Assembly (NCBI GenBank): GCA_030431635.1
Contig: JAUIIL010000001.1
Location: 186,001 to 250,000 of the forward strand
Direction: 5' to 3'
Source: Bacteriovoracia bacterium
Lineage (GTDB): Bacteria; Bdellovibrionota; Bacteriovoracia; Bacteriovoracales; Bacteriovoracaceae
DNA length: 64,000 bases
Position numbers and translations under genes: made by a program. The notes beneath the pieces were generated by a model, which saw nothing but the letters and a program-made list of their open reading frames with translations, had not been told where the DNA came from and made no database searches. Of this stretch, positions 7,867-48,958 are shown piece by piece; position 1 is the stretch's first letter, and each line of letters starts with the position of its first letter.

Positions 7867-8004
7867 AAAAAACTCCCTCTCCAAAGAGTGAGATATTTTT
7901 CTAATATTTCATTGTTTTAAGCAATAATTTGGGGCCAAGCTTTGTAAAAAATGACATAATAAAAGGATACTTGTAAGTAAATGTTAGTTTCATAAGGGGT
8001 TTGT

Positions 8005-10575
8005 GTGAAAGAAGCTGCTCCAAGTCGAATTTTTTTAAAAGATTATACTCCACCAGTGTTTTTGATTCGAACTGTTGATCTTTGTTTTCAAATTTTTGAG
8101 AAGGCCACTGTTGTTCATTCCAAAATCCACTTTTATAGAAATATTAAGGAAGGGGATAGTCTTTTTCTTGATGGAGAGTGTCTTAAACTCTTAGAAATTA
8201 AAATTGATGGGGAAAAACTCTCAAGTGATCAGTATGAGCAAACAGACGATGGACTTGTTCTGAAATCACTTGTAGATGATTTTATTTTTGAATGTAGTGT
8301 AGAAATCGATCCCGTTAATAATAAAGCTTTAGAAGGTCTTTATAAGTCCGGAAATATTTATTGTACTCAAAACGAAGCTCAAGGTTTTCGAAAAATTACT
8401 TACTATCTTGATAGACCAGATGTTTTGGCCAAGTTTAAAACGAGAATAGAAGCAGATAAAAACCAATTTCCTCTCCTACTTTCTAATGGAAATAGAATTT
8501 CAGAAGGGGAGCTTGATAAAGAAAGACATTGGGTTCAGTGGGAAGATCCATTCCCTAAACCTTGTTATTTATTTGCTCTTGTTGCCGGAGACCTTGCTGT
8601 TGTGAGTGATGATTTCATTACTAAAAGTGGTCGAAAAGTTCGTCTCGAGTTCTATGTTGATCATGGCAACGAAGATAAGTGTGATTGGGCCATACGTTCT
8701 CTAAAAGAATCTATGAAGTGGGATGAAAGACGATTCTCACTTGAATATGATCTCGATCTTTACATGGTAGTTGCTGTTGATGCTTTTAATATGGGTGCCA
8801 TGGAAAATAAAGGGCTTAACATTTTTAACTCTCATTATGTTTTGGCCAAAAAAGAGACGGCCACAGATGATGATTTTATTGGAATTGAAAGTGTTATTGG
8901 GCACGAGTATTTTCATAATTGGACTGGTAACCGAGTAACGTGTAGGGATTGGTTTCAGTTGACACTAAAAGAAGGACTCACTGTTTATCGAGACCAAGAG
9001 TTTACTTCTGATTTAAACTCGAGAGTTGTGAAAAGAATTGATGATGTTAAGTCATTAAGGGCCAGACAATTTCCGGAAGATGCAGGACCAATGAGTCATC
9101 CAATTAGACCGAGTTCTTATATAGAAATTAATAATTTCTATACGGCAACAGTTTATGAAAAAGGGGCCGAAGTTATTCGAATGATGGCCACTATTATTGG
9201 AGAGCATAATTTTAGAAAAGCGATGAATCTCTACTTCCAGAAGCATGATGGCCAGGCGGTTACAACTGAGGACTTTGTTAATACCGTAAGCGAAGCCAGT
9301 AGCGTTGACTTTGATCTTTTTAAAAATTGGTATCAACAAAAAGGAACTCCTATAGTTAAAGTAGTAGAGAGCTATAATCAAAAACAAGAGCGGTTTGAAA
9401 TTGATATTGAACAGGCCCTCCCGTTTAATCAAAATGAGATTTTACATATTCCCCTTAAGATTGGTCTTTTAAATCGAGAGGGAGAAGAGGTGGAGTCCAA
9501 ACTAATTGAGTTAAAAAGTAAAAGTGAAAAATTAGTTTTCAGTGGATACAAAGAAAAACCCGTTTTATCTTTTAACAGGGAGTTTAGTGCTCCAATTAAG
9601 GTTGAAAGAGATTTATCCACTGAAGAGATGGCCTTAATGATGGCCCATGATACAGATGGGTTTAATAGATGGGACTGTGGTCAGAGACTATATATGGATA
9701 AACTAAAGTCCATGGTCTCTCATCCAGAGGAGAAGGCAGGACATCTTTTGATGAACGCTTTCAAGAATCTTCTTGTTGACACAGAAATTGACAATGCTTT
9801 TAAGGCCTATGCTATTAGCTTACCCAGCGAAGCTGAAATCAATGATGCTCTTGAGGCCCCTGATTACAAAAAGGTTCATGAAGCGAGGATAAAACTTCTG
9901 GAAGAATTTGCTCTTAGTAATCAAGAACTCTTTTATGAAATGTATATTAACCTTTCTAAGGAGAAGAAGTTCTCTCTCTCCCAACAAGACATGGGAAATA
10001 GGGCACTGAAAAACAAAATCCTCACCTACCTGTATAGAACGTCTAAATATTCGCACTTGGTTTACGAACAGTTTAATAAGGCAACCAACATGACAGATGA
10101 GTTAGGAGCTTTAAGGCTCATCGTTCATGACGTCACCGCTGATAGTAAAGAGAGTATTCAGCGTTTCTACGATAAGTGGCAAGATGATTTTCTTGTTCTT
10201 AATAAGTGGTTTGCTGTCTGCGCCTCAGCAGATAGAAGTGATATTTTTAAAGTAGTTAATGATTTGGCCAAAAATCCTAAGTTTGATGGGAAAAACCCTA
10301 ATATGCTCCGCTCACTTTATGGTTCTTTTGCCATGAATTTAGTGGCCTTTAATAAAGAAGATGGAAGTGGGTATGAGTTTATGGCCAAAAAGATTGAGGA
10401 AATAGATAGCTTTAACCCTCAAATAGCGGCCAGGTTTTGCTCTTTATTTAATCGTTATCATCAATTACCAACAAAGCTTAAAGGCTTAATGAAAAAGTCA
10501 CTTGAAGGTATCCTTGAAAAGGAAAACCTCTCCAGGGATACATTTGAAATTGTTTCTCAAACATTAAAAGAGTAG
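8005..10575 (+). CDS. pepN: Aminopeptidase N (M1 zinc metallopeptidase)
   Basis: An 856-residue M1 peptidase starting at GTG with AAGGGG about 7 bp upstream. It removes N-terminal residues from peptides in the cytoplasm. The exopeptidase motif GAMEN is at 264-268, the zinc site HEYFH at 300-304 and the third ligand Glu323 in KEGLT. The order of N-terminal beta domain, catalytic domain, Ig-like domain and long helical C-terminal domain, and the length, match the E. coli PepN type (870 residues). The gene contains 18 GGCC sites by hand count, far above base-composition expectation. It ends three bases before the convergent small membrane-protein gene. Confidence 0.95.
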   Translation: MKEAAPSRIFLKDYTPPVFLIRTVDLCFQIFEKATVVHSKIHFYRNIKEGDSLFLDGECLKLLEIKIDGEKLSSDQYEQTDDGLVLKSLVDDFIFECSVEIDPVNNKALEGLYKSGNIYCTQNEAQGFRKITYYLDRPDVLAKFKTRIEADKNQFPLLLSNGNRISEGELDKERHWVQWEDPFPKPCYLFALVAGDLAVVSDDFITKSGRKVRLEFYVDHGNEDKCDWAIRSLKESMKWDERRFSLEYDLDLYMVVAVDAFNMGAMENKGLNIFNSHYVLAKKETATDDDFIGIESVIGHEYFHNWTGNRVTCRDWFQLTLKEGLTVYRDQEFTSDLNSRVVKRIDDVKSLRARQFPEDAGPMSHPIRPSSYIEINNFYTATVYEKGAEVIRMMATIIGEHNFRKAMNLYFQKHDGQAVTTEDFVNTVSEASSVDFDLFKNWYQQKGTPIVKVVESYNQKQERFEIDIEQALPFNQNEILHIPLKIGLLNREGEEVESKLIELKSKSEKLVFSGYKEKPVLSFNREFSAPIKVERDLSTEEMALMMAHDTDGFNRWDCGQRLYMDKLKSMVSHPEEKAGHLLMNAFKNLLVDTEIDNAFKAYAISLPSEAEINDALEAPDYKKVHEARIKLLEEFALSNQELFYEMYINLSKEKKFSLSQQDMGNRALKNKILTYLYRTSKYSHLVYEQFNKATNMTDELGALRLIVHDVTADSKESIQRFYDKWQDDFLVLNKWFAVCASADRSDIFKVVNDLAKNPKFDGKNPNMLRSLYGSFAMNLVAFNKEDGSGYEFMAKKIEEIDSFNPQIAARFCSLFNRYHQLPTKLKGLMKKSLEGILEKENLSRDTFEIVSQTLKE

Positions 10576-10577
10576 TT

Positions 10578-10718
10578 TTAAGAGGATCTTTTCTTTGTTT
10601 GCTCTTGCGACTTTATCGGCACAAGTTTTTTTTGCGGTTTAGGCAAGACCGCAGCGATGATTCCTAGAAGTCCTAAAACAACTCCGGCAGTTACACCTGT
10701 GGTTAAGGATATGTCCAT
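10578..10718 (-). CDS. Small single-pass membrane protein (46 residues)
   Basis: A short reading frame with ATG at 10716-10718 and an AGGAG site 7 bp upstream. The product has a hydrophobic segment from about residue 5 to 26 (TTGVTAGVVLGLLGIIAAVL) and a basic C-terminal tail (KPQKKLVPIKSQEQTKKRSS), the topology expected of a small inner-membrane protein with its tail in the cytoplasm. The excellent ribosome-binding site, Ala GCC/GCG use and fit into the gap between two genes support a real gene. No function can be assigned. Confidence 0.6.
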   Translation of the reverse strand: MDISLTTGVTAGVVLGLLGIIAAVLPKPQKKLVPIKSQEQTKKRSS

Positions 10719-10879
10719 GTGTGTGCTCCTTTTTCCCTCACAGACTGCTTTTCGGCAGTTTTCAGCTTAAATTATAGCATTAATCTTTAGGGACAAAGTA
10801 AACTATTCCTAGATGCTTAGAGCGAAAAAATGCATTAAAATAAAAATATAGTAATTTCAATATCTTCGGAGATTCCTTT

Positions 10880-12337
10880 ATGACAGAGACACCTCTGACT
10901 ACTAGACAAAAGGCCTTAAAAATAAACCTTGATCCACGGATATATGGCACTTTGGCCGAAATTGGCGCTGGCCAAGAAGTGGCAAGGCATTTCTTCCAGG
11001 CGGGAGCGGCTTCAGGGACAATCGCCAAGTCGATGTCTGCCTATGATAAAGTTTTCTCGGATGAGGTGTACGGAAAAGAGAGAACTGGTCGTTATGTGTG
11101 TGAAGAGAGGCTCATCAAAATGCTTAAAAAAGAGTTTGATGTTCTAGAAGATAGACTCAATGGAAAGAGACCTGAGGATAATCTTTTTTTTAGTTTCGCC
11201 AATACAGTGTCGGCCATTAATTTTTTTGGAACAAACGAATCTCATGGGTGGATAGGTATTCGTTATCAATTGGGCCCTCAAGGAGACTTTCATGATGTTG
11301 TTCTTCATGTGCGCATGCTCGATAAGGATAATATTTCTCAACAACATGCTTTAGGTGTCATTGGAGTTAACCTTATTTATGCCGCTTTTTTCTTTTATGA
11401 AGATCCTGACCAATTCATTGACTCTCTCATGGATAATTTAACTACAAATAGAATAGAAATTAATATGGTCCGTTTTACTGGCCCTAGTTTTAGCGATGTT
11501 GATAATAGACTTCTTAATCTGCGCTTAGTTCGAAACGGCTACACCAACGCTGTTATGTTTAACGAGAATGGTGAAATCACTTTGGCCAGTGATGAGCTGT
11601 ATCGCCAAAATGTCTTAGTTATTCGTGGTAGTTATAGACCACCAACACTGGTTAATGTGGATGTGATTGAAAGCGGGAAGCAAGCTTATATGGAAAAAAA
11701 CTCTTTAAAAGAAAAAGATATCATTACTGTTTGTGAGATAACAATGAGTAGTCTCAACCAATCAGGGATGCTTTCTCGTCAAGACTTTCTGGCCAGAGTT
11801 GATCTACTGGCTTCTTTAGGACAAAAAGTTCTTATAAGTAATTATCATCAGTATTTTAGGCTTACAGAATATTTTTCTAAGTTTAAATCTCCTAACTTAG
11901 GAATTGTTTTGGGAGTTTATAATTTTCAGCAAATTTTTGATCATGATTACAATAACTACGAAGGAAGTGCTCTTATTAATCTCGGTCTTAATGTTGCAGA
12001 AGAAGAGGAGGATGCTCAAACTCATTTAAACGTTCTGGCCAGTATCGGTCTTCTTTTTAGAAGTAATGTCAAAGTCTTTGTTTATCCTTACCATAGCGAT
12101 GTTAAGGGAGAGTCTGTTCATTTAGATGATTTAAAAATTAGCAGCGTCTATAAACACTTAGTTCATTTCCTTAGAGAGAGCTCACAGTTATTTGACATCG
12201 ATAATGTGAATACTCAAATCAGTGGAATCTATTCAAGAAAAGTTCTTGAGATGATACAAAATGATGAGAAAGGGTGGGAGAAAATGCTGCCTACAAATAT
12301 TGCAAAGCAAATAAAGAAGAAAAACTACTTTAGGTGA
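10880..12337 (+). CDS. Conserved protein of about 485 residues, function unknown
   Basis: A 485-residue soluble protein with ATG preceded by GGAGA at 8 nt. The N-terminal sequence ALKINLDPRIYGTLAEIGAG followed by EVARHFFQAGAASGTIAKS marks a family found in many phyla, which databases often label misleadingly as TonB-dependent receptor or nucleotide adenylyltransferase; that is my recollection. No signal peptide or membrane segment is visible, so the receptor label does not fit. Glycine-rich stretches near 28-45 could form a nucleotide or phosphate loop, but this is speculation. The gene stands alone and overlaps the convergent lipoprotein gene by 13 bp. Confidence 0.7.
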   Translation: MTETPLTTRQKALKINLDPRIYGTLAEIGAGQEVARHFFQAGAASGTIAKSMSAYDKVFSDEVYGKERTGRYVCEERLIKMLKKEFDVLEDRLNGKRPEDNLFFSFANTVSAINFFGTNESHGWIGIRYQLGPQGDFHDVVLHVRMLDKDNISQQHALGVIGVNLIYAAFFFYEDPDQFIDSLMDNLTTNRIEINMVRFTGPSFSDVDNRLLNLRLVRNGYTNAVMFNENGEITLASDELYRQNVLVIRGSYRPPTLVNVDVIESGKQAYMEKNSLKEKDIITVCEITMSSLNQSGMLSRQDFLARVDLLASLGQKVLISNYHQYFRLTEYFSKFKSPNLGIVLGVYNFQQIFDHDYNNYEGSALINLGLNVAEEEEDAQTHLNVLASIGLLFRSNVKVFVYPYHSDVKGESVHLDDLKISSVYKHLVHFLRESSQLFDIDNVNTQISGIYSRKVLEMIQNDEKGWEKMLPTNIAKQIKKKNYFR

Positions 12338-24476: not shown

Positions 24477-25340
24477 ATGAAGTCAAAAATAGCTTTTCTT
24501 ACATCTAAAGAACACCCTCACTTGATAGAAGACGAAAAGTCACTCCTTGATGAGTTCCAGCGTAAAGGAATTGAGTTCCAAATTGTAGTGTGGGATCAAT
24601 GTGATAACTGGGAGCAGTTCAACTATGTGATCGTAAGAAATCCGTGGGACTACTATATTCATTATGAAAAATTTGTTCGTGTTTTAAATGACATTCACCA
24701 TTCAGGAGCTAAGCTAGTCAATCCATACACGACTCTTATTTGGAATATGGATAAAAGCTATATGCTTGAACTGATGGAGAAAGGACTTAATGTTGTTCCT
24801 ACTTTCATCATAGATAACTTTAATCAGGAAAAATTTGAAGAATTGCTTTTGCTCATAAAGACAAATGAATTTGTTATCAAACCGATGGTAAGTGGAAGTG
24901 GTCTTCATACTTATCGAAAATTAACCTCCTTATCTTCGGAAGAAATGAATCAGTTGTGTGATATTTTTTCTGGGCAAAGTGTTTTGATACAGCCTTTCAT
25001 TGAAGCCATTTTATCTGAGGGAGAGCTTTCTTTTATTTTCTTTGGAGGTGAGTTCTCTCATGCGATAAAAAAAACTGCGAAAAAAGGAGAGTTTCGTATC
25101 CAAGCGGAGCATGGAGGTAAAGTTGAAATCTATATCCCAAATGAAGATGAAATAAAAGAGGCCAAAAAATTTGTGGATAACTGTGGGTATGAATGCTTGT
25201 ACTCCAGAGTCGATCTTGTGGCTGATAAAGGGGAGTTGAAACTCATGGAGCTTGAACTTGTTGAGCCACAACTCTTCTTTTCTTGGGATAAAAAGGCAGC
25301 GGCCCTTTTTGTTGAAAAATTTATTTCATCGACACTCTGA
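24477..25340 (+). CDS. ATP-grasp family ligase
   Basis: A 287-residue protein from ATG 24477 (upstream in-frame sequence lies inside the divergent nucleotidase leader and is not protein-like). It has the ATP-grasp layout: N-terminal Rossmann-like part with KIAFLTS and VIVRNPWDYY, then NEFVIKPMVSGSG (phosphate-loop lysine), SVLIQPFIEAI, and the metal-binding CLYSRVDLV...LMELELVEPQLFF, where Asp and Glu residues bind Mg. It resembles glutathione-synthetase-like proteins such as DcsG. Substrates are unknown. The 3' end overlaps the convergent VWA-like gene by 15 bp. Confidence 0.8.
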   Translation: MKSKIAFLTSKEHPHLIEDEKSLLDEFQRKGIEFQIVVWDQCDNWEQFNYVIVRNPWDYYIHYEKFVRVLNDIHHSGAKLVNPYTTLIWNMDKSYMLELMEKGLNVVPTFIIDNFNQEKFEELLLLIKTNEFVIKPMVSGSGLHTYRKLTSLSSEEMNQLCDIFSGQSVLIQPFIEAILSEGELSFIFFGGEFSHAIKKTAKKGEFRIQAEHGGKVEIYIPNEDEIKEAKKFVDNCGYECLYSRVDLVADKGELKLMELELVEPQLFFSWDKKAAALFVEKFISSTL

Positions 25341-27407
25341 AGCTCTTAATTGTCTGATTTGAGAATCTATCATTTTCTGAGCACTTGAATTTGAAGAAGC
25401 TTGTTTCTTCGCATTTTCTAACTTCTCTAGTGCAAGTTCAACTTTTCTTTTGGTTAAAGTTGTAATCGGCCATTTGATCCAGCGCTCTAAACCACCTTCA
25501 GTTTCTAGTCTTTCTTCTCCAGCTTTTATATCCATTTTAACCATAGGAGACATACAAAATATCTCTACTCCAGGGTAGTCTTTTCTTATAGCATCAAAAA
25601 CATTTTTAACATCACCAGCAAGGCCTCTATCCCAAACACCATTAAAGCCCATAGGGCCAGAAGCTGTGTTAGAGTAAACATCTCCAAAATCATTATCACC
25701 AGAGTTATCTACCCAAAAGACAACTCTTTGAAGTCTTGATCTAATTTCTTTATTAAGACTGAACGCTTTTGTTGTTGCGTTAGAAGAAATAATGTCCTTC
25801 ACGGCTTTTCCTAAGTTCTTGGTATCACCAGGATAAAGATAAAAATTGTGAGATGTATCTTGGAAAAAAGAGTCTTTCCTCTCAGGAGGGAGAATGAGTT
25901 TATGCTGAGCTTGGAATTCATTAGTAATGACGGCAATAACATGATTAGGATTTTTTGCCATGACTTCTTTCTTATAAAGAGCGAGATCTTTATCAACCCT
26001 CTCACTTGGTTTTGTACTAAGTACTTGCTCGAAACTCTTTCCTGTTTTTTTTGCGAGCTCATAGACATCTTTAAAAAATTGATACTCGTTATTTTGTAAC
26101 CTCTGTACATATGATTTTTTAGTACCTTGAATCCAGGCTCCTTCTTTTTTTCCTGCACTAAGATCGTTAAGAACTTCTCTGATATTTTTGACATGAGTGG
26201 CTTGAGACATATCTCTCATTTGATAGTCAGATCCTAGGTAACGATAATAATAGAAAAGATCGTAGGCCAGAGCTTCAATGGAGTAGTAGTAGCCTTCACC
26301 TAAATTATCGTATTCAACATAATTACCATTATTATTTTTGAGAAGACCTGTTAGGCGTTCAAAGTTGACGGATGGACGAGACTCATTGATCATAATGATA
26401 TGAATCTCATCGGCCCTTGGTTTATCTTTAAACTTAGGGGGTCTTGTTTGTGGAGGGAAAAAACGAGGTTCAATATCAGGGATATTATCTTGAGCCTTAT
26501 GAAAGCTGACCAAAGTTTCTTTCTTATAGTCAATACGAACATATCGATTAGGAGCATTAAGCTCTATTATTGGAGTGGGGTTAAAGTACTCTTTCAAATT
26601 TTTGGGATATGAATTTGGATAATTATCAATAACAACTCCAATCAAGTAATAAGTCATCATGGCCCTGGAGTAGGCGAGAGAGAAATTGGAGTAGGAGTCA
26701 GGTGCCTTTTTTAATTCTTCTTCGTATTGTTTTTTTAAGTCAGGACTAAGAGCTTCAAAATTTGGTAGAGCTCCTTTGGGTTTTAATCCTTCAAGATAGA
26801 GTTTTTTACTGAATTCAGCGATACCACTTCCTTCAAACCCATTAGGATCGTTTGTGGTGGCCTTATCTTTATCAGCAGCTGCAATAATAGGAATTGAGTA
26901 TTTCTGTGCCTCTGAATCTGCTTTTAAGTAATTGAGAACCTTCTTTACTGAATTCACGTAGTTTGGGTCCAGATCGTAGAGAGTGATATGCTTTAAAATA
27001 TTGTAGACTTTGATACTTTTATCTTCCGAAGTGTTAATCCTTTTCTTTAAATTATCAAAGCCTTCTTTTGTAATAGGGAGGACAACGTTAGGAGGGAAGC
27101 TATCTGAAAGACTTCCCGTTGAGACTACTTTTGTTTGATGCCCATCCTCAGTTTCTGTTCGGCAAGCACAAGCAAAAAAACTAAATGTTTCTCCTAATAC
27201 AGTTTGATCTTCTTTCATCGCATTTGTGACTAGCTCATCTGGTCGAGAGAGCTCTTCATGCTTATAACATTGAAGAGCATTATCTTGGCACTCATCAAGA
27301 GAAAAGAGTGAGCGGCATTGGAGAGCAACATCTTTCTTAGGGTCGCACTCATCTTGAGCAAAACTCGTACTAAGGAGAAAAATAATAATTATAATGAGCT
27401 GGTGCAT
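25326..27407 (-). CDS. Secreted OmpA-like/VWA-like protein, paralogue 3 of 3
   Basis: A 693-residue exported protein, third gene of a three-gene operon; its start overlaps the previous gene by 19 bp. Order: signal peptide ending SFAQ; Cys cluster (DECDPKK...LQC...FFACACR) to about 90; OmpA-like segment with AAADKDKATTNDPNG, the helix LAYSRAMMTYYLI and strand PNRYVRID; a middle region with RADEIHIIMINES; and a C-terminal VWA-like domain from about 560. There the metal site is altered to DNSGD (567-571) instead of DxSxS, so metal binding may be lost. It keeps the family motif as ERWIKWP and ends in a charged helix absent from its paralogues. Function unknown. Confidence 0.7.
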   Translation of the reverse strand: MHQLIIIIIFLLSTSFAQDECDPKKDVALQCRSLFSLDECQDNALQCYKHEELSRPDELVTNAMKEDQTVLGETFSFFACACRTETEDGHQTKVVSTGSLSDSFPPNVVLPITKEGFDNLKKRINTSEDKSIKVYNILKHITLYDLDPNYVNSVKKVLNYLKADSEAQKYSIPIIAAADKDKATTNDPNGFEGSGIAEFSKKLYLEGLKPKGALPNFEALSPDLKKQYEEELKKAPDSYSNFSLAYSRAMMTYYLIGVVIDNYPNSYPKNLKEYFNPTPIIELNAPNRYVRIDYKKETLVSFHKAQDNIPDIEPRFFPPQTRPPKFKDKPRADEIHIIMINESRPSVNFERLTGLLKNNNGNYVEYDNLGEGYYYSIEALAYDLFYYYRYLGSDYQMRDMSQATHVKNIREVLNDLSAGKKEGAWIQGTKKSYVQRLQNNEYQFFKDVYELAKKTGKSFEQVLSTKPSERVDKDLALYKKEVMAKNPNHVIAVITNEFQAQHKLILPPERKDSFFQDTSHNFYLYPGDTKNLGKAVKDIISSNATTKAFSLNKEIRSRLQRVVFWVDNSGDNDFGDVYSNTASGPMGFNGVWDRGLAGDVKNVFDAIRKDYPGVEIFCMSPMVKMDIKAGEERLETEGGLERWIKWPITTLTKRKVELALEKLENAKKQASSNSSAQKMIDSQIRQLRASECR

Positions 27408-29386
27408 TTTTCTTTTCCTACTCTAAAATTTCCAGTTTTAAGACTTTCAGGAATAAAGGAGAGTTCACCAGTGCTTACCTTAGCAGTGGTTTGAAATGGC
27501 CACAAAAGCCATCTCTCATCAACAAAATAGCGGCAATAGTTAATTCTCTTTATCTGTGGAAAGTTATCCTTTATTTCTTTCTCTAGCTCTCCAATTTGCT
27601 CTTTAACACTGTTGAAAGTCATAGAACCTGATTCATCAATAAAAAGATTAACACTCTCTAGATGCTCAAAGTCAGCAATGGCATTGATAGAGCGAAAGAG
27701 AGAGTTTTTAAAGTTTTCGTTAAAAGAAGCTCCACGTTTCAAGGTTTCTTTATGAATCCCAAGTTCTTTAAGAGTCTCCTCCAAAAGAGTTGCTTCAAAC
27801 TTTTCATCTTTTGGAGGGGCCAGTGGTTCAAAGATACCCTTATCGTTGGCCAAATGAAATATGGCCAATGAGTATTTATAGTGCTCTGGTAATTTTTCTT
27901 TTCCTTTCTTAAAGTCCTCTTTTTGTTCTAAAAAGACTTTGTAGTTATTTCCTGTATCCTGAGGATCAAAGTAAATGGCCTTGACGGCTTCTTTTAATAA
28001 GAGCATGGCATATCCGTCTAGCTTAACAAAACGAAAGATTTTTCTATCAACAAATTTATCCATTTTATCTTTAAATTGCTCTTGATAACGAGCAATTTTC
28101 TGCAGTAGTGTTTCATTGTATTTTGAATGAAGAATAATCTTATGTTTTTCTAACTCAGAGATGTTTTTAATTTCTCGGGATTTGATAATATTTTCAAAAC
28201 TAATGACTGTAGCGATAATAAGTAGATCTAAATTGTACTCTCCAGACTTAGGATCGTATTGGCAAAAAACATCTTTATCTGGATCAGGGTAAGTCAGTAT
28301 CTTATCATGACGAGAGTTTTTAGGGTTACAATAAATAAGAGCAAATCTTTCAGCAAAGCTATCAACAGTATTATAATAACTTGTTTTCGTAATTGTTCCT
28401 CCATAAGGGTTAGGAATTGATTCATCAAGAACAATAATGTTTACATTTCTTCCCCTCGTGACCCCTGGAATATCTTCAGGTTTAAGCCGGCTTTTCTTTT
28501 TAAAAGAAGACTGGATATCGATTGAGACAAATTTTTTTCCATAACTAATTTCTGGGTAGTATTCTTCATATTTTAACATCTCTTCAATTGTTTTGATGTC
28601 ATGCTTATTATATCTAGGTGCGGCTTCAACGATGGTAAAAGCAGTAATAAGGCCTCTTCCTAGAGCAAGTTTTGTATTATTAATTTCACTTTGACTTAAA
28701 TTGGTAATGGTTTTTTCATCATATTTCTGAGTGATAATTTTTTTGACGAACTCTTTTTTCATAATGGCATTGATAAAATCATTACTCAAATCAGCAAGTT
28801 CAAGGCCAGTATAATCAAAACCAGAAGAATCTGCGGAGCTTTTAAAATTATTGGGCTCATCCAAATTAGCGCGAGCATTACTTGCTCCGGCCTTAACAAT
28901 AAAAGTATTATCAATTTTATCTAGTTGAGAGTTTTGCCACTGTGTTTTTCCTCCGTTGAATTCTTTAATAGTGGCCTGAATTCCTTCCATCAGAAAGTAA
29001 AGTGTGTTTCGAAATTCAATGCGAGGAAGATTTCCGTTTTTTACATTGGTCATATAGTTTGACATATTCTCTTTAAGTTTTTGATGGGGGATATAAGGGA
29101 AAATGATGTTATCAGGGAAATTACTAGAGAGTTCGCTTGGGCTACTACAAGTACACTCAAAAGGGTTTCTACTTTTTATAATCTCTATATCCTGACTATT
29201 GAGTTTACCCATTTCACTTGGTTCCATATCAACATAGCTCTTACAAATGGGAGCTCCTTTACAGGGAACACCTAGAAGAAGAGCAGGGCATTTATTCATT
29301 TGCTCCTGAGTACAGTCAAAGCTATTAGTGATGAGTGCTATAGATTGATAGCTAAAAAAAAGAATTAAAATATAAAACTTCTTCAT
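27389..29386 (-). CDS. Secreted OmpA-like/VWA-like protein, paralogue 2 of 3
   Basis: A 665-residue exported protein coupled to the upstream paralogue by an ATGA overlap. It has a signal peptide, a Cys cluster ending in FECTCSS, an OmpA-like segment (VKAGASNARANLDEPNN, LALGRGLITAFTIVE, GKKFVSIDIQ), a middle region with VNIIVLDES, and a C-terminal VWA-like domain whose MIDAS loop is intact: DESGSM (584-589). The motif DERWLLWP follows about 40 residues later. It is the most divergent at its N-terminus. MIDAS-containing VWA domains bind protein partners through a metal ion, so adhesion or complex assembly is a reasonable inference. Confidence 0.72.
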   Translation of the reverse strand: MKKFYILILFFSYQSIALITNSFDCTQEQMNKCPALLLGVPCKGAPICKSYVDMEPSEMGKLNSQDIEIIKSRNPFECTCSSPSELSSNFPDNIIFPYIPHQKLKENMSNYMTNVKNGNLPRIEFRNTLYFLMEGIQATIKEFNGGKTQWQNSQLDKIDNTFIVKAGASNARANLDEPNNFKSSADSSGFDYTGLELADLSNDFINAIMKKEFVKKIITQKYDEKTITNLSQSEINNTKLALGRGLITAFTIVEAAPRYNKHDIKTIEEMLKYEEYYPEISYGKKFVSIDIQSSFKKKSRLKPEDIPGVTRGRNVNIIVLDESIPNPYGGTITKTSYYNTVDSFAERFALIYCNPKNSRHDKILTYPDPDKDVFCQYDPKSGEYNLDLLIIATVISFENIIKSREIKNISELEKHKIILHSKYNETLLQKIARYQEQFKDKMDKFVDRKIFRFVKLDGYAMLLLKEAVKAIYFDPQDTGNNYKVFLEQKEDFKKGKEKLPEHYKYSLAIFHLANDKGIFEPLAPPKDEKFEATLLEETLKELGIHKETLKRGASFNENFKNSLFRSINAIADFEHLESVNLFIDESGSMTFNSVKEQIGELEKEIKDNFPQIKRINYCRYFVDERWLLWPFQTTAKVSTGELSFIPESLKTGNFRVGKEKCTSSL

Positions 29387-31245
29387 AGTTTACAATCCTT
29401 GATAGCAACTTCCTCGGCTTGATAAGCTGGCCAGCTTACCCATCTCTCATCTGAGAGTTTTTCTCCTGTTAAGCAGAAAACTTCTGTTCCAGGAAAATCA
29501 GTCTTAATCTTCTTCACAAAATCATTTAAAACTTGAGAATACTCTTTAGCCTTCACTGAGCCAGAATCATCAATATAGATCATAATTTTCTTTAATTCTG
29601 CAAAGTTTTTTATTTGCTTTTCTCCCTCATTATAAATTTTCTGAGCTTGAAAAGAAGCGTTAGAGGAGATGACTTTTTTTAATGTATCTTTCACATCGAC
29701 TGAGTTTCTATCAAGAAGTTCAATATAATAAAAGTTATGATTTTTTTGCTCAAAGAAATTGAGATATTTTTGAGGTAAAATAGGCATGTATTTCTTCCCT
29801 TCTCTTCTTTGGGGGATTTCGAAACTTGGAAGATGAGCAACCGCAATAACATGTTTTTTATTAAGTCCCGATCGGGAGTAATCTTTCAGATCCTCTTCAA
29901 AGCGAGTTAGGGCCATCTCTTGTGCTTTTTTAATACCACTATCAAAGAAGTAAGGAGAACTAACAAGATCTATAAACTTAGGGATTTGCTCCATGACTTC
30001 CCCTAAATTTTTCCCCAAAATTTTTTTAAATTTTGTATTGTTACTTTTTAAGAGATTATCAAAAGCGCTTACAAACTCTCGGTAGCTTAAAGGCCTACTG
30101 CCACCTACTAAAGAAGAAAAGTTAAGGTATTCGTAATGGTTGGCCTTAATCATCAGTTCTCTATCAAAATAATAGCCCATTGTCTCAAAGTAATTTTTTT
30201 GAGAGTCAATTTCTGGAGTGGGGGTGGACTCATCGAGGAAGATGATGTGAATCTCCTCGGCCCTCTCTTGTCCTCGGAATTTTTCAGGTCTCTGAGCTTC
30301 AGGGAAGTGACTAGGTGATAGTTTCTCTAAAGCGTTTGTTTCATAAATTTCATTTTGGTTATGAACAGCAACTTGAAGGTAGCGTTGTGGCTTTTCTATT
30401 TCAATAACGGGAATAGGAGAGAATTTTTTTTTCACTTCAGAATTTGGATATTTTTTATCAATTATTTTCTGAATAATGAGATAGGTGATATAACCTCTAC
30501 CATAGGCGAGATCGGCATTACTGAGTTCTCCAGGCTTGTTCTTAAATTCAGATTTGATTTTCTCCATCATCTCTTCTGATGTTGAGTGAAAGTCAGGAAT
30601 ACTTTTTTGTTTTTTAAAATCTTTTGAAAGTGAAAAACTAAATTGAGCGATACCCGTTTGTTTGAATCCTTCAGGATCACTTATAGTTGCTCTGGCCGGA
30701 TCAGCAGCGGCCCTGACTCTTATGCTTCCATCTTTGATTTTATCTTGATGTTTATGGGCCCTTTCAATAATTGACTCCATTTGGGTAAGAAAGTTTGGTT
30801 CAAGATAATCAAGACTTAATTGTGAAAGAACTTGTTCGATATTTGGAGGATTTGTTCCCACTCTTTCTTTAAGAGAGCTAAAGCCAACTCTTGTAATGGG
30901 AATAATAACGTTTTGAGGGAAACTATTAATAAGGTTTCCATTACTTCTGAGTGTTGTCTTGGTAAATCCTTCTTTTTCTTGTCGACATGCGCAGGTATAG
31001 TAATGAAAGAGCTCTCCCACTGCGGTGACACTCTTATCACTTGAAGCCTTTTCTAGAGGGTCACTTTTTTTCATTAAAAGTTCATCATTAAGACAAGCTA
31101 ATTCTTTGTCATCACACTCTTGTGAGTTAAAGACTTTTCGACATTGAGAAATGGCATTTTTGAGAGGATCGCACTCATCTTCACTTTGCACAAAAGCAAA
31201 GGAAGATAAATGATATAAAAATACAGCTATAAAGAACGGTTTCAC
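29383..31245 (-). CDS. Secreted OmpA-like/VWA-like protein, paralogue 1 of 3
   Basis: A 620-residue exported protein starting at GTG with GGGAGAG upstream, first gene behind the divergent promoter. Signal peptide to about 20; Cys cluster (ECDPLKN...SQC...QEC...LAC...YTCACR) to 87; FPQNVIIPITRVGF; then an OmpA-like segment at about 125-295 whose ADPARA (Asp182), LAYGRGYITYLI (Arg250) and PQRYLQV line up with the strand, helix and RR(V/I)xI strand of OmpA/MotB domains, where the Asp and Arg bind diaminopimelate. The VWA-like end begins near 549 with DDSGS (559-563), then DERWVSWP. Peptidoglycan anchoring plus a binding domain is the suggested layout. Confidence 0.72.
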   Translation of the reverse strand: MKPFFIAVFLYHLSSFAFVQSEDECDPLKNAISQCRKVFNSQECDDKELACLNDELLMKKSDPLEKASSDKSVTAVGELFHYYTCACRQEKEGFTKTTLRSNGNLINSFPQNVIIPITRVGFSSLKERVGTNPPNIEQVLSQLSLDYLEPNFLTQMESIIERAHKHQDKIKDGSIRVRAAADPARATISDPEGFKQTGIAQFSFSLSKDFKKQKSIPDFHSTSEEMMEKIKSEFKNKPGELSNADLAYGRGYITYLIIQKIIDKKYPNSEVKKKFSPIPVIEIEKPQRYLQVAVHNQNEIYETNALEKLSPSHFPEAQRPEKFRGQERAEEIHIIFLDESTPTPEIDSQKNYFETMGYYFDRELMIKANHYEYLNFSSLVGGSRPLSYREFVSAFDNLLKSNNTKFKKILGKNLGEVMEQIPKFIDLVSSPYFFDSGIKKAQEMALTRFEEDLKDYSRSGLNKKHVIAVAHLPSFEIPQRREGKKYMPILPQKYLNFFEQKNHNFYYIELLDRNSVDVKDTLKKVISSNASFQAQKIYNEGEKQIKNFAELKKIMIYIDDSGSVKAKEYSQVLNDFVKKIKTDFPGTEVFCLTGEKLSDERWVSWPAYQAEEVAIKDCKL

Positions 31246-31281
31246 AGTTCTCTCCCAAAATCATATGTTTCAGCAGTTAGC

Positions 31282-36300: not shown

Positions 36301-37472
36301 GTATTTTCTCTGGAGGGAATAATTTCTCTAGAGGAAATCCATTGAGTTATGCAGAAGATATGATTTTCCTTTCTCTTTCAAAAGTAATGGAGAAAACCGG
36401 AGATTTTCCTGGCAAGCGCGCTCTTTATTTTGCTGCTAGAAAGGCCACACAGGTTCTTGTTTGTACCCATGCTAAGGCCATGAATAAATTAATGATGAGT
36501 ACTCCTGGAAAATTAGCTGTTGGGGCCTACACACTTTATAACAACTCAAAAGTGATTGTTGATATTGAAAAATCAGTGAAAGAGAACAAAAAGCTTCAAA
36601 ATGAAACTCAAAAAAGACGTGATGATTTTGTTGAAGGAAAGGTTGTTCAAAGTGAGAGTCCTTTTGATAGTTTTATGAATCAGATAATAAATCCTCTCGA
36701 TTTTGTCATTGATAAGGCCTACGCTAAGCAAGCTGAGAAAATTTATGTTTGTATGGATTTTAAAGGTCAAATAAACCAGAAGTGTGAGTGCGCCAACTCC
36801 TCCTCTGGGTGTATCAGGCCTTACCCAAGAAGTCATAGCGAAGATCAGGACTTAAAGACGATGGTTACAGCTCAGCCTAAAATGATGGGGCCTCTAGAGA
36901 AAATGGTGGGGTTTCTGACAAAAGAAGTCACCGATCTTTTTGGAGGAAGTAAGTCTATTGATGATGTTAATGTTGAGAAAATTCAGGCGATGACAACTCA
37001 ACTTAATCAGGCCAGTGATAATTTGATTCAAAAAATTAATGAGAAAAGACAAAAAGAAGGGAAAAAGCCTTTTGAAGTAGAAGAAGCTGCAAAAATGGTA
37101 GAAGGAGAGCTTTACGCTTCCTTATCTCCAGAAATGAGAAAGGGACTTTTTGAAGAGCTTACAATTTCAGATTTAAAGAAAGGTCTTAGTAGCGGTAGTG
37201 AAGGAAATCTCAAAGAAAATACACCAGATTTAGCGAAACCTTCAGATAATCCTCAATTAGCTCAGGAGCAGTCAGTGAAGAGAATAGAGGAAGCTCTAGA
37301 GAGAACTCCTGCGAAGGAAGAGAGTGCTGCCTCTGTAAAAGAGAATATTGCTCTTAATAAGGCCTTAGAGCAAAAATATGATTATTCTCAAGCACAAGAC
37401 GATCTCTACCAAGGAACCAGTGGAATTTTTTCTGTTATTAGTAGTCGTTATAAGAAGATTTTTAGTCCATAA
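33336..37472 (+). CDS. Giant secreted Cys-rich protein with Gly/Ala-rich hydrophobic segments
   Basis: A 1378-residue exported protein (signal peptide ends GAYAF). Residues 1-470 are helical with regularly spaced cysteines, likely disulfide-paired hairpins. Between about 475 and 880 there are four Gly/Ala-rich hydrophobic stretches, for example CLAGAAMGALG, LALGIGLAGNALSC, FSAKDCLNGGGSG followed by IAGLIPGQAG, and IGTAMTAAAQLVSAL, of a kind seen in membrane-inserting or pore-forming proteins. A CxC motif (QKCECANSSSGC) lies near 1150, and the last 200 residues are charged helix. No known family is recognised; amphitropic membrane insertion is an inference. It has its own FliA-like promoter. 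Confidence 0.65.
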   Translation: MNMKLLIFFFLSGAYAFEMYKIDSSSEKYSLYSLCFEKMNSLTEVPFQTKSIKQTKKELKKADVRCDLDELMLSYLEDENKFYTKKLKDELCLSPDGEKECDKIVKESLKDYLQTNTLNTSICSNEDIYSTRKHKKECQLGLALKGHLQNAKTIDSNGRQVAITSQLCLSVFDNKELKLKSEMELDNFRVSDCESINSSSQEHKDLCYDIVNNNYSLFLTLKEKEGLSGDELFPNTSDLLQMCQASAKGKSVCESFSPVVAASCQESIKNAAIKNAFAIRGCEDNNPILIEKIKDKCEKESSLVVGSEDYLRCEKSVKTSCKLSRAGNELLRNIGGELAQEEGAVGIMARLGLSAASCVPRGALDKKYEDQNKLSIQDLCLSYFTSLDEANYCIEIHKGILSHSTFKECKSENLDCRLTSIAVTKACLEQDNGNYNLEKCLYSSGDNQGVSLINRLHTAQLGVTQDSNRMVQNRRREAGLCLAGAAMGALGEIDENIAKFGNAAIGTLSCLRQGPSKEQRLTLQETCQNEANKNSTECQEYKTRAAMRDSCLVNQLGSSIAAELKGDARKIFETLYGAASSIRECTAIPNEGVAGLNGKVRDKQKDQCFMRAGFNMFADLFNENENLALGIGLAGNALSCMGLTGAELTRCISTGALSSLGAHIKDPKLAKAFEAASQVAAAAFSAKDCLNGGGSGADQGACIAQSIAGLIPGQAGSYVQWGLSGYKLIPMLKGATCLDTKLQAGGALASWGGEFITTVLQEGENKSLGKDYERREKEAERYKKINGVYPASYDPQVMAFDYQIEAQAVAIKTLQRKRPFVYIGTAMTAAAQLVSALKILGFGGLPTCISVPPGTAAQDMAKCAAGAFKPNLFKQKTSLFSFEKEDFDVEKYVRSIQINDKKIQEYVEATLSDEEAFFAYQEMNRLKLGLNQSMSLDDYKKSQQFSLNDFDISIKQAILMSYKIEQMLNPLMSAHALDVEGIAVGTAESIFSGGNNFSRGNPLSYAEDMIFLSLSKVMEKTGDFPGKRALYFAARKATQVLVCTHAKAMNKLMMSTPGKLAVGAYTLYNNSKVIVDIEKSVKENKKLQNETQKRRDDFVEGKVVQSESPFDSFMNQIINPLDFVIDKAYAKQAEKIYVCMDFKGQINQKCECANSSSGCIRPYPRSHSEDQDLKTMVTAQPKMMGPLEKMVGFLTKEVTDLFGGSKSIDDVNVEKIQAMTTQLNQASDNLIQKINEKRQKEGKKPFEVEEAAKMVEGELYASLSPEMRKGLFEELTISDLKKGLSSGSEGNLKENTPDLAKPSDNPQLAQEQSVKRIEEALERTPAKEESAASVKENIALNKALEQKYDYSQAQDDLYQGTSGIFSVISSRYKKIFSP

Positions 37473-42616: not shown

Positions 42617-45589
42617 ATGAGATTATTATGTCTTTTAGCTATTGTAACTTTATTTTCTCACGCGAGTGATGAAAAGCCTGAAAGACACAGAAGTCGTATT
42701 GACGATCTAGTGGCAGATCTTGGAAGGGACTGGGGAAGCAGCACTCCAACAGAAGTTAATAGGCAAATACTCAAGAGAATTCAAGAAGTAAAATCTTCCG
42801 GCGTCAAAGTTGTTGAGACAGATAAATATATGGCCGTTTTTGATACAGAGTATGGAAGGCCTTATGTTTTTAAAAAGAATAACCTATCTGAAGATCAAAG
42901 AGAAAAATATGGGATAAATGAGGGAGAAGTTTTCTTACTACATAAAAATGGAAGAGAAGATTTCTGGCGTTTTAAAACTCAAAATTCAAAAAGAGCAGCA
43001 AATGACTTAAAAGAAGAAGACCCTTCTCTTGAGTTATCTACCTATAATAAGCATTTAAGCTTTATTGAAGGGGCCAAAAAAGATACTCTCAATACAATGA
43101 TATCTTGCTTTCCTATGAATAAAAATTCTTGTAGTGACAATCAGGAGTTTGATTCACTTAATTGTCTTTGTATAAGTAAAAAAGAAAAACAAAAAAATCC
43201 TGTTTCTCTGTCTGATGGCCCTACTCCTATAATGGGTAGTGGAGAGCTTTTTGGTGGAGGAGTTGTTATTCCAAAAGAGAAGCTAAAATGTGAAGGAGTT
43301 GAGGGTGTTACCCCAATGAGCGAAGAGAAATTTAACTCCGCAAAGGATTCTTGTAAACAAGCAGGGCATAAGTGGAAGAACTGCCAATGCTTAAGTGTCA
43401 AGACAGGAGGAACTCTTTGTAAATATAAAGAGAAAAGAAAAATAACTGGGAAAACAGATAATTCTTTAAAAGCTGTCTATAGAGATCGTGAAGGAGAAGA
43501 TTGGAATAATGAAAAGCTCACATGGGCCCCTTGTAGTATTGAGAATTGGATGGGAAGCATTGCTCGTTTAAAGAAAGATATTCCTCATTGTGCTCAGTGG
43601 GAGAAAATAAAAATTAAATCTAAAGCAAAAGGAAATAACTTCAAAGAGAAGCGCTACGCCTGTCAAAAATGTAAAGAAGGCTATATTCAAAAGTTTAATG
43701 AAGTGGATATGCTCGTCGGCGTGAATGATTATTTTATGGAAGGGCCTATCCAAGGTGTGACAGCTTGTACTGAGCCTCCCCGTAGTATGCAGTGTAAAAA
43801 TGCAGCAAAAGAGCAGAGAAAATGTGAAAGAAGGAATAACGATTCTCAAATCGGTTATGAATATAAATTTAATCCTTTTACTTGTGAGTGCGCCAAAAGA
43901 CCTGTCTCGATTCCAGAGAATAAGGATCTTGTGGCCCAGAGTTGTGAAGCAAAAGTGACTCAAGGTGATAGAGATCGTTGCTACAACAACGGTGGTTATT
44001 TAGATGAGAACTGTCAGTGTGAAAGACCATGTTACGATAGAGTCTATTTTAACGATCTTGAAGACCAAGGTCCTAAATGTGATTATCTAGGGACTGAACT
44101 TGATAATACTTTAGTTAAGCTCATTGAAGAAACAAGTGTTGTGGCCCAAAAAAACTGTGAGGAACTTACTCAGAATTCAATGTTTGAGCAAAAAAAGAAG
44201 AGTTTAATTCAAAAATGTATTGATGAAATCGGGATGGCACCAAAGGGAATCAAATCAAGAACGGTAAGTTTAAAGCTTGCTTTAAGTGAAGATGTTTCTT
44301 GCTCTGTTAATTTAACGCAAGAGAGTGAGGATTTTGGTTCCAAGTTTCCTGCTCTGGTTGGAGGAGTTGATTTGGCCAAAGATTTTAAGGGCGCAGACGG
44401 ACAGAGGCTAAATCCTGAGAACATTGATTGCTCTAGGGGAATTCGTTACCAGAAAAAAGGATTTAATAATAAACTTCTTAAAGGAAATGAGTGCGAGTCT
44501 GTGAAGTCCATGTATGAATCTATAAAATCCAAGGCCAATAAACTTGCAGAGAGTGTTATTAATGACCCTAATATTCCAGAGAGTGTTGATAAGTCAAAAA
44601 TGATTTTAGATAATCTTAATCTTGAAATTATTGCAACGGCTAACAGGATTGCGCATAAGGACGGTTATGTTTCTCACCAGGAACTTGCTAATGAGAGGGC
44701 TTCTTCAGTGAGAGACCTCTACCTCGATTTTCTTAAAGAAAGTCCTTACCTGAGTCAAAACGAAAAATTCAAACAAGCGGTTGAGAAAATCAAGCAAGAA
44801 GAAGCTCCTCGCTCACTGGCCTACTTTGGCCCTCATGTGAAAGGAAAATCTCTTAATGAGATGAAATCTCTTTCGGGAGAGGAGATGCTTAGTTATTGTG
44901 AAAATAGAATGAGTTCATCTCATGAGTTCTATCAGTGTAGTGTTGATTACCACATTGATGTTGAACTCTCTCATGGTGATGAAGCACAGAGTTTTATGAA
45001 AACTTTCTCTGATGTTTATAACATTAGATTACCAGAGAAAAAAGAAGAGTACAGACAAAAGCTATTAAACCTTCCCAATGGAAGTACTGAATTTATGGAT
45101 TATTATAAACTTTTTAATATCCAAGCAACGACAAGCGAGTCATTAGGATACAAAAAAACAGCGTCCTCTGATGTTGAATTTGAATGTGAAACTCAATTTA
45201 AAGATATCTATGATGAGTCCCCAAAACTTGTTCCAGTGCAAGTTCGTTATGGGAAGAGACCTGCTTTTTTTCAACGCTTTAACAAGCAGTGCCAAGAGGA
45301 TTATCAGAAAACAATCAACGAGATTGCTCAAGAGCTCTCCCAAGAAAATGCAGAACTAAAAAATGAACTTCGAGATCGTTTTGAGCCAGAAGTAGCACAA
45401 GAGAAATTTGATAGGAAAATGAAGGCCCTGGCCCGAAAAGAGTGGAGGCAAATGAAGAGAAATACTCGCTCTGTGGCCAAAGAGCATGACTCAAGTTTCT
45501 CTGAGGCCTATGATTGGATTAAGTCAACTCCAGGTGAAGCTTTCAAATGGGGCGAAAAACAGTATAATGAGCTCAAGAGAAATGAATAA
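42617..45589 (+). CDS. Large secreted protein with repeated CxC modules
   Basis: A 990-residue exported protein; ATG 42617 (MRLLCLL) is preferred to an in-frame GTG 12 bp upstream that would precede the signal peptide (ends FSHAS). Residues about 155-475 carry at least four short modules that begin with Cys and end in an NCxC-type pair: FDSLNCLCISK, HKWKNCQCLSV, FNPFTCECAKR and LDENCQCERPC. Such spacing suggests small disulfide-rich domains, not classical EGF. The C-terminal half is charged and helical (for example KFDRKMKALARKEWRQMKR). No known family is recognised. The CPBP protease gene starts two bases after the stop, so the two are cotranscribed. Confidence 0.65.
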   Translation: MRLLCLLAIVTLFSHASDEKPERHRSRIDDLVADLGRDWGSSTPTEVNRQILKRIQEVKSSGVKVVETDKYMAVFDTEYGRPYVFKKNNLSEDQREKYGINEGEVFLLHKNGREDFWRFKTQNSKRAANDLKEEDPSLELSTYNKHLSFIEGAKKDTLNTMISCFPMNKNSCSDNQEFDSLNCLCISKKEKQKNPVSLSDGPTPIMGSGELFGGGVVIPKEKLKCEGVEGVTPMSEEKFNSAKDSCKQAGHKWKNCQCLSVKTGGTLCKYKEKRKITGKTDNSLKAVYRDREGEDWNNEKLTWAPCSIENWMGSIARLKKDIPHCAQWEKIKIKSKAKGNNFKEKRYACQKCKEGYIQKFNEVDMLVGVNDYFMEGPIQGVTACTEPPRSMQCKNAAKEQRKCERRNNDSQIGYEYKFNPFTCECAKRPVSIPENKDLVAQSCEAKVTQGDRDRCYNNGGYLDENCQCERPCYDRVYFNDLEDQGPKCDYLGTELDNTLVKLIEETSVVAQKNCEELTQNSMFEQKKKSLIQKCIDEIGMAPKGIKSRTVSLKLALSEDVSCSVNLTQESEDFGSKFPALVGGVDLAKDFKGADGQRLNPENIDCSRGIRYQKKGFNNKLLKGNECESVKSMYESIKSKANKLAESVINDPNIPESVDKSKMILDNLNLEIIATANRIAHKDGYVSHQELANERASSVRDLYLDFLKESPYLSQNEKFKQAVEKIKQEEAPRSLAYFGPHVKGKSLNEMKSLSGEEMLSYCENRMSSSHEFYQCSVDYHIDVELSHGDEAQSFMKTFSDVYNIRLPEKKEEYRQKLLNLPNGSTEFMDYYKLFNIQATTSESLGYKKTASSDVEFECETQFKDIYDESPKLVPVQVRYGKRPAFFQRFNKQCQEDYQKTINEIAQELSQENAELKNELRDRFEPEVAQEKFDRKMKALARKEWRQMKRNTRSVAKEHDSSFSEAYDWIKSTPGEAFKWGEKQYNELKRNE

Positions 45590-45591: not shown

Positions 45592-46218
45592 ATGAATAAA
45601 AAATTAATACTCGGGCTCGAGTTTTTTCTCCTCTACATTTTTTTAGTTTTAGGAATCCATTATAAATGGATAACGATTCATCCTTTTATTCTTCTAGGCC
45701 TTGGATTTAGCTATGCTCTTTTTCAACTAAGAGGAGAGTTTTCTGCACTTTTTCTGACTGGCTTTGAAAAAGAGGATTTGTATTTTGTTCTTAAACGCTT
45801 TTTTATCATTGCTCTTTTTGTTGGAGTCGGAACCTACTTTTTAAGACCGGACAAACTCTTCTATGTTGTTAAGAATCGCCCCAAACTAATTTTGATTGTT
45901 TTCTTTGCGTATCCTCTTTTATCAGCTATCCCACAAGAAGTTCTTTACAGGAGCTTTTTTTTCAAGAGATATCAGTCCTTGTTTGGGCCAGGACAATTAA
46001 TTATTTTTGTAAACGCGCTCTGTTTTAGTTTTCTACATGTTATCTACAACAATTGGGTTGCTCTCACTTTTACTTTTGTGGGAAATTACCTCTACACTTC
46101 AACTTATTTAAAAAAGAAGTCCTTTGGACTTGTTTGCATCGAGCACTCACTCTATGGTCTTTTAATGTTCTTGATTGGGCTTGGTGACTTCTTTGTGTTG
46201 CGTTTTAACCTGAATTAA
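45592..46218 (+). CDS. CPBP (CAAX/Rce1-like) intramembrane metalloprotease
   Basis: A 208-residue multi-spanning membrane protein. The CPBP motifs are present: PQEVLYRSFFFKRY (Glu116, Arg120), FSFLHV (His149) and EHSLYG near 185. The first Glu of the usual EExxxR is Gln115, a change also tolerated in some family members. Such proteins cut membrane-near peptides or serve as bacteriocin immunity/maturation factors. Placed directly behind the CxC-repeat gene, it could process products of the locus; that is inference. It converges with the MNT gene, overlapping by 4 bp. Confidence 0.8.
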   Translation: MNKKLILGLEFFLLYIFLVLGIHYKWITIHPFILLGLGFSYALFQLRGEFSALFLTGFEKEDLYFVLKRFFIIALFVGVGTYFLRPDKLFYVVKNRPKLILIVFFAYPLLSAIPQEVLYRSFFFKRYQSLFGPGQLIIFVNALCFSFLHVIYNNWVALTFTFVGNYLYTSTYLKKKSFGLVCIEHSLYGLLMFLIGLGDFFVLRFNLN

Positions 46219-46508
46219 AAAAGAGTTTTTTCTTTTAGATAGTTCTCAAGATAGGATTTTTCAAAGTCCTTAAGTTGAACTAGATCTATTTTAATTGGTA
46301 GAGAGCTTTCCTCAAAAACTTCTCTTAGTTCCCCAATTAAATCTGATAAATCCTTATCAGATTCAAGCATAAGATCAAGATCAGAAAATTCATGGTAGTC
46401 ACCTCTGGCCCTTGAGCCAAAACAGTAGATTTTTGCGTTGAACTCTCCAGCAGCTGTGAGCTGCTTTTTTAAAAAGTGATAATCTTGTTCTTCAAGGCCA
46501 AACTTCAT
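46215..46508 (-). CDS. MNT-domain nucleotidyltransferase (antitoxin of HEPN/MNT pair)
   Basis: A 97-residue minimal nucleotidyltransferase with the signature GSRARGDYHEFSDLDLML (GSxAxG...DxD), the metal- and nucleotide-binding core, and a third Asp in KIDLV. In HEPN/MNT pairs this protein AMPylates the HEPN toxin and blocks it. It is translated from an ATGA overlap with the HEPN gene. Confidence 0.85.
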   Translation of the reverse strand: MKFGLEEQDYHFLKKQLTAAGEFNAKIYCFGSRARGDYHEFSDLDLMLESDKDLSDLIGELREVFEESSLPIKIDLVQLKDFEKSYLENYLKEKTLF

Positions 46509-46864
46509 ACTGAATCAAATTGAGTAGATAGGTTTTCTAGTTCACTCAGAAATCGGCTAGCGAAGGAGTAGACTTCTTCTGCTAAGTCCTCATTATAGGT
46601 GTGTGAGGATAAATTTCTCTTTTCAATCGCTTCAAGCCAGAGTTTTGCATCTTGAATAAAATGATTTTGGGCCATTTCCCTAACAATTTGCTTTGGGGCA
46701 GTCGTTGGGGTTCCCATAAGCTTCTTGGCATACTTCCACGCTAGTTCTACACAAAACTCAAATCTCTGAATGGCCGCATCTCGGCTGATATCGTTTTTTT
46801 CTGCATGAAGTGCTTTTTTGAGAGAATCGACAGCTTTTTTATATTTTTCAATAGTGACGGCCAT
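46505..46864 (-). CDS. HEPN-domain protein (HI0074-like toxin of HEPN/MNT pair)
   Basis: A 119-residue helical protein starting at ATG 46864; the frame stays open for another 58 codons upstream but that part runs into the integrase terminator stem and does not resemble the family. AIQRFEFCVELAWKYAKK and EKRNLSSHTYNED are hallmarks of the nucleotidyltransferase-substrate-binding HEPN family. RNLSSH is the Rx4H ribonuclease motif and the following Tyr is the residue AMPylated in known pairs. It sits at the junction between chromosome and mobile element, and may serve element maintenance. Confidence 0.82.
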   Translation of the reverse strand: MAVTIEKYKKAVDSLKKALHAEKNDISRDAAIQRFEFCVELAWKYAKKLMGTPTTAPKQIVREMAQNHFIQDAKLWLEAIEKRNLSSHTYNEDLAEEVYSFASRFLSELENLSTQFDSV

Positions 46865-46939
46865 AAGCGCTTTTAAATTTGGTGGATTCGACGGTTTTTT
46901 GTCTAACCCATTAAGTTTATACAGATAACGATAGAAGAT

Positions 46940-46956
46940 TTGGCTACAATAGCCAA
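46940..46956. promoter_or_regulatory. Perfect inverted repeat upstream of the HEPN/MNT operon
   Basis: TTGGCTA-CAA-TAGCCAA: a perfect 7-bp inverted repeat with 3-bp centre, about 75 bp upstream of the HEPN start. Position fits an operator for autoregulation, or a small hairpin in the leader. No direct evidence of function. Confidence 0.35.
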
Positions 46957-47012
46957 GGGAAAAATTCACTCTCAAAAAACAGTAAGTTTTGAGAATTTCA
47001 TCTTTTCCCATA

Positions 47013-47042
47013 AAAAATGCACAAGATTCCTTGTGCATTTTT
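47013..47042 (-). terminator. Intrinsic terminator after the integrase gene
   Basis: A perfect 13-bp stem AAAAATGCACAAG/CTTGTGCATTTTT with a 4-nt loop, 25 bp beyond the integrase stop. The symmetric A/T ends would let it work in both directions, isolating the element from the HEPN/MNT operon. Confidence 0.75.
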
Positions 47043-47067
47043 CAAAAGCGAAATGTCTTGAAAGCTT

Positions 47068-48926: not shown

Positions 48927-48958
48927 ATTGAATCCTTAAATTAAAATTTATATTATTC

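Follow-up and report, generated by a model that had tools for sequence, protein, structure and literature searches.

The window analysed here is a stretch of 64,000 nucleotides from a Bacteriovoracia bacterium (contig JAUIIL010000001.1). Three neighbouring genes in it lie on the minus strand and, by the order of the open reading frames (ORFs), are transcribed as P0003, P0002 and P0001. P0003 (29383..31245, 620 aa) begins with GTG and is the first gene of the operon, P0002 (27389..29386, 665 aa) is the second, and P0001 (25326..27407, 693 aa), which carries an insert after its DNSGD motif and a long C-terminal tail, is the third. P0003 and P0002 overlap by 4 bp (29383-29386), and P0002 and P0001 by 19 bp (27389-27407). 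Direct reading of the sequence upstream of P0003 located a ribosome-binding-site-like GGGAGAG (31250..31256, minus strand) at most seven bases from the GTG start. GC content of the three-gene region resembled that of its surroundings, and promoter-like and terminator-like patterns were no commoner there than in shuffled sequences. A hydrophobic stretch reading by eye as a signal peptide was found at the N-terminus of all three proteins; a crude signal-peptide filter passed P0001 and P0002 and failed P0003. The lipobox pattern was absent from the first 40 residues of each.

Homology of the three proteins was assessed by BLASTP and by Smith-Waterman alignment against 100 shuffles per pair. P0001 and P0003 were 29% identical over 666 columns (E 2e-79, z 99.5), P0002 and P0003 21% over 703 columns (E 4e-14, z 27.8). 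P0001 and P0002 were joined weakly and mainly through P0003 (E 0.016, z 7.0). Similarity among the three was thus significant, and the tandem triplication proposed in a preliminary description of this DNA was borne out; its end-to-end alignment held directly for P0001/P0003 and P0002/P0003, and for P0001/P0002 mainly by way of P0003. The outer genes form the closest pair and the middle gene is the most diverged copy. Identity between copies was low throughout (21-32%). Direct repeats in the region were short (20-31 nt) and 71-85% alike, leaving no trace of recent duplication at the DNA level. These comparisons show the three proteins to be true relatives and support descent from one ancestral gene that was triplicated and then diverged.

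Eight cysteines, missed in the preliminary description, occupy equivalent places in all three copies, six near the N-terminus and two at the C-terminal end. They are residues 25, 35, 44, 51, 85, 87, 591 and 618 of P0003 and residues 21, 31, 40, 47, 80, 82, 618 and 692 of P0001; P0002 (25, 33, 42, 48, 78, 80, 353, 375, 618 and 661) has two beyond the common eight. Coordinates computed from these positions (all minus strand) place the N-terminal six-cysteine region at 30985..31173 in P0003 (residues 25-87), 29147..29314 in P0002 (residues 25-80) and 27162..27347 in P0001 (residues 21-82). The two C-terminal cysteines bracket an ERWxxWP motif in every copy: ERWVSWP (29428-29448) between Cys591 and Cys618 of P0003 (29392..29475), ERWLLWP (27497-27517) between Cys618 and Cys661 of P0002 (27404..27535), and ERWIKWP (25467-25487) between Cys618 and Cys692 of P0001 (25332..25556). 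Upstream of this segment the metal-ion-dependent adhesion site (MIDAS)-like loop differs in each copy, as had been described: DDSGS in P0003 (29557..29571), DESGS in P0002 (27623..27637) and DNSGD in P0001 (25695..25709), again on the minus strand. When the three copies were aligned, five positions of ERWxxWP (E, R, W, W and P) were invariant, against D, S and G alone in the loop, so that ERWxxWP is the better kept of the two. The other motifs listed previously were found where they had been placed, several in loose form in P0002 (AGASNARAN, LALGRG, KKFVSI).

On the plus strand, four large ORFs run divergently from the three paralogues, each beginning with an apparent signal peptide. P0007 (31438..33240, 600 aa) matched no family above cut-off. 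P0006 (33336..37472, 1378 aa) contains 42 cysteines; any match to it was found in 13 of 129 genomes, its own included, and long homologues of the full-length type only in two, G034 and G115. P0005 (37532..42550, 1672 aa) combines an N-terminal M48-like protease region (HELEH), which scored 21.9 bits against a cut-off of 20.3, with a C-terminal ABC1-like kinase region, which at 21.7 bits fell just below its cut-off of 22.9 (the two ends were scanned apart). In appearance it is an M48-type protease fused to an ABC1-like kinase and exported; an extracytoplasmic kinase would be unusual. P0005 was found in six other genomes, as homologous ORFs in G086 and G017 and as partial matches in G013, G028, G078 and G118. 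P0004 (42605..45589, 994 aa, 34 cysteines) has one homologue among the 129 genomes (in G122). The two share ATANR...(Q/T)L(A/S)N.RA (P0004 residues ~670-705, window 44600-44900; ELANERASSVRDLY), a better candidate for an OmpA-like helix than any in the three paralogues.

The surroundings of the long P0006 homologues were compared with the window. In G115 (locus L030) two overlapping minus-strand ORFs (7771-10119 and 10116-10961) point away from an ORF of 588 aa and the P0006 homologue, and in G034 (locus L028) a 571-aa ORF is likewise divergent from the homologue. None of these neighbours showed detectable similarity to the three paralogues, and the shared layout may therefore be coincidence. 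ORFs overlapped over more than half their length by a longer ORF were dropped before C-terminal features were counted. Near P0006 homologues (within 8.5 kb) 6 of 22 ORFs had a cysteine among their last five residues, versus 5 of 176 elsewhere (p 0.0003). Both the association and the 8.5-kb limit were arrived at post hoc, and paralogues account for three of the six ORFs. Eleven ORFs share an IFxxIS.RY tail within their last 60 residues: P0006 (window 36573-37472, its C-terminus), together with homologues and some neighbouring ORFs from other genomes (L028:9990-15407, L030:13154-17710 and loci L032, L033, L034 and L035). The tail may act as a tag for sorting or export. Near the G034 homologue lies a 1258-aa ORF (L028:4273-8049) with an apparent N-terminal export signal, AAA_2 and ClpB_D2-small matches in two stretches each, and one Peptidase_M41 domain.

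Beyond the P0006 cluster lies what appears to be the beginning of an integrative conjugative element (window 46215-64000). The element carries an NTase/HepT-like pair (46215-47038), a tyrosine integrase (47068-48255), a relaxase (48959-50821) and genes for TraC, TrbI, TraK, TraE and a thioredoxin/TraF-like protein. The NTase/HepT-like pair has a counterpart of 40-41% identity that directly adjoins the P0006 homologue in G034 (L028:8517-10042). A search for attachment-site repeats returned only chance-like matches of 15-16 bp, and the ends of the element were not found.

Relatives of the paralogues were sought with a profile of the three sequences in 368 genomes of the phylum (E 0.001). Only the genome of the window itself matched; none of the 367 others did. 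These 368 include 129 genomes of the family, which were counted once since the family, order and class searches all returned the same set. No relative was found in genome contigs, viral contigs, PDB sequences or plasmids. P0003 alone recovered P0001 at 5.8e-68 and P0002 at 4e-7 in its own genome, so relatives equally close in other genomes would have been seen. P0003 also weakly matched an M48-type ORF of 2014 aa in its own genome (E 2.8e-4) and an ORF of 327 aa in G028 (E 5.9e-4); both matches were rejected as chance after their translations had been read, and because the three-row profile did not find them. NCBIfam gave nothing for the three proteins. A PADLOC match of P0002 (E 0.015) and a PHROG match of P0003 (E 0.044) were marginal, and with Pfam likewise yielding nothing beyond marginal scores, the statement that no described family covers these proteins stands. 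The only Pfam match repeated among them was to DUF3800 (PF12686), by way of IDDSGS/IDESGS (E 0.0061 in P0003, 1.3 in P0002; no match in P0001 up to E 10). That match was confined to the motif stretch and scored 17.7 bits (P0003) and 10.1 bits (P0002) against a curated cut-off of 21.

We tentatively favour the reading that an exported, disulfide-stabilised protein of ~620-690 aa underwent an ancient triplication, and that its copies diverged and co-assemble as a hetero-oligomer with P0006 as a likely partner. The homology, the 4- and 19-bp gene overlaps, the eight equivalent cysteines and the better conservation of ERWxxWP than of DxSGS all support it, as do the modelled strand-helix-strand described below, the layout in G115 and G034 and the enrichment of terminal cysteines near P0006 homologues. 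Specialisation into a hetero-oligomer had been proposed before; the triplication and divergence on which that proposal builds are confirmed, and the oligomer itself is a fair inference from genes so tightly coupled by overlap. Somewhat less probable is that the paralogues are three separate secreted proteins, such as enzymes or effectors, that share an ancestor and act on different targets outside any complex. Such independence would suit the low identity between copies, the diverged MIDAS-like loops and the lack of any recognisable catalytic set common to all copies. The translational overlaps across all three genes, and the equivalent cysteines and ERWxxWP kept in every copy, speak instead for a shared job.

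The preliminary description had assigned the proteins an OmpA-like middle and a C-terminal von Willebrand factor A (VWA)-like part, with a MIDAS loop that was probably dead in the third copy. Spelled out, this model has the OmpA-like middle anchoring the proteins to peptidoglycan and the C-terminal VWA/MIDAS domain acting as an adhesin that would bind metal in two copies. This arrangement is improbable. By eye, the three proteins do show the elements of the OmpA C-terminal domain (PF00691) in OmpA order, namely a strand that closes with AD, then a helix with N..LA..RG/A, then a strand with.RY or.KF; DxSGS is seen in two copies, and genuine OmpA domains bearing insertions exist in the lineage. 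Pfam nevertheless gave no PF00691 row up to E 10 for P0001, P0002 or P0003, in a genome where the profile works (ten matches elsewhere, none in the three genes). Alignment of the three-sequence query by hhalign to nine local OmpA domains and ten insertion-bearing OmpA domains of the lineage gave probabilities of 0.05-1.1%, the sensitivity of so small a query being low. The best local alignment, to the insertion-bearing set, placed N..LAYGRG opposite the OmpA helix at 1% probability, and this register was the only support obtained for the OmpA idea.

The helix (N..LAY.RG) was also scored with three weight matrices in each of the three proteins. Whatever the combination, 94 to 200 out of 200 shuffles equalled its site. 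Null sets for these tests comprised 52 and 73 ORFs drawn from the fetched loci. Training of the classical OmpA matrix drew on 24 of 38 OmpA loci; the other 14 did not fit the extraction pattern, so that this matrix leans to regular members. AlphaFold modelling of the full-length protein was poor (pLDDT 34.0). The proposed OmpA-like middle is therefore not upheld by profile match, profile-profile comparison or helix matrix, although a query of three sequences has little power and these results fail to support an OmpA domain rather than exclude one. One of the G115 ORFs (L030:7771-10119), taken by eye as OmpA-like, was retracted when the best place of the matrices in it proved to lie elsewhere. 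Inner-membrane coiled-coil proteins of MotB/ZorB type that combine an insertion-bearing OmpA domain with a CxxYDC-like cysteine pair recur across the family (loci L077-L086).

The VWA half of the assignment fared no better. PF00092 gave no row up to E 10 in P0001, P0002 or P0003, and matched two places elsewhere in the same genome, neither of them among the three genes. Counted from the D of DxSG, 62, 82 and 127 residues remain before the C-terminus, versus 174 positions in the PF00092 profile; there is therefore room for no more than the first beta-alpha-beta of the VWA fold, and a contiguous, unpermuted domain would not fit. The DxSxS start of a MIDAS is present in two of the three copies (DDSGS and DESGS), with DNSGD in the third. 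A model of the last 160 residues looked alpha/beta at low confidence (pLDDT 45.3, pTM 0.40), with elements in the order E4-11, E24-28, H32-40, E43-50, H52-65, E93-98 (followed by DxSG), H106-123 and E128-133. The strand, DxSG and helix of this low-confidence model resemble the start of a VWA domain, and a second strand completes a strand-helix-strand around DxSG. Searches with the model by Foldseek (best E 0.041) and VIA-align (best Z 5.9) returned generic alpha/beta folds among the matches listed, and no VWA chain was among the 50 listed for each; since the model is poor, this absence proves nothing. We know of no VWA counterpart of a conserved ERWxxWP loop between cysteines.

Least probable of the alternatives is a circularly permuted or split VWA-like domain, in which strands HVIAV and HNFYY (P0003 ~465-510) would supply the later strands and the DxSGS unit the first: the predicted strand order would suit a six-strand alpha/beta sheet, but it comes from the same low-scoring model, the folds matched (among the 50 listed per search) belong to other alpha/beta families, and inspection by eye recognised no conserved Thr or Asp in the preceding strands that would complete a MIDAS.

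The nearest published model for the three paralogues is Bd0875 of Bdellovibrio bacteriovorus, a MIDAS-family adhesin described as needed for correct prey invasion, which has a lipobox and a small beta domain into which a complete MIDAS/VWA domain is inserted (PMC11003981). Bd0875 is exported, has a loop of DxSxS type and is predicted to form several disulfides (PMC11003981); the paralogues share the loop, and export and disulfides are predicted for them as well. They differ from Bd0875 in having neither a lipobox pattern nor a VWA profile match, and in carrying their DxSG unit 62-127 residues from the C-terminus.

Under the favoured hetero-oligomer reading, the three paralogues would be exported by the Sec pathway, made together and assembled in the envelope or outside the cell. 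Each would consist of an N-terminal module with three disulfides, a middle region and a C-terminal alpha/beta unit (strand-DxSG-helix-strand), the disulfides being deduced from cysteine counts alone. The terminal disulfide would pin the tail of the alpha/beta unit, and ERWxxWP would thereby be displayed on a closed loop, which may serve as a conserved surface for binding or assembly. The giant secreted proteins encoded by the divergent operon would be likely partners, the cysteine-rich P0006 foremost among them. A more elaborate version, which we regard as a long shot, would have these proteins form an exported assembly of three subunits that represents a new class, with minimal or permuted DxSGS units and disulfide-closed ERWxxWP contact loops. 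Two of the subunits would bind metal, the third would be an organiser that does not, and the assembly would be tethered to P0006 through terminal cysteines.

The three genes offer a clean case of a lineage-restricted exported family that diverged deeply within one genome and has no detectable relative among the 367 others of the phylum. Left uncorrected, the assignment to OmpA plus VWA would mislead work on the envelope or prey-contact proteins of this group. Judged by its overall protein make-up the organism is a probable relative of Bacteriovorax, so the paralogues may have a role in prey contact. If the proposed complex is real, the ERWxxWP loop between its two cysteines would be a sharp, testable interface.
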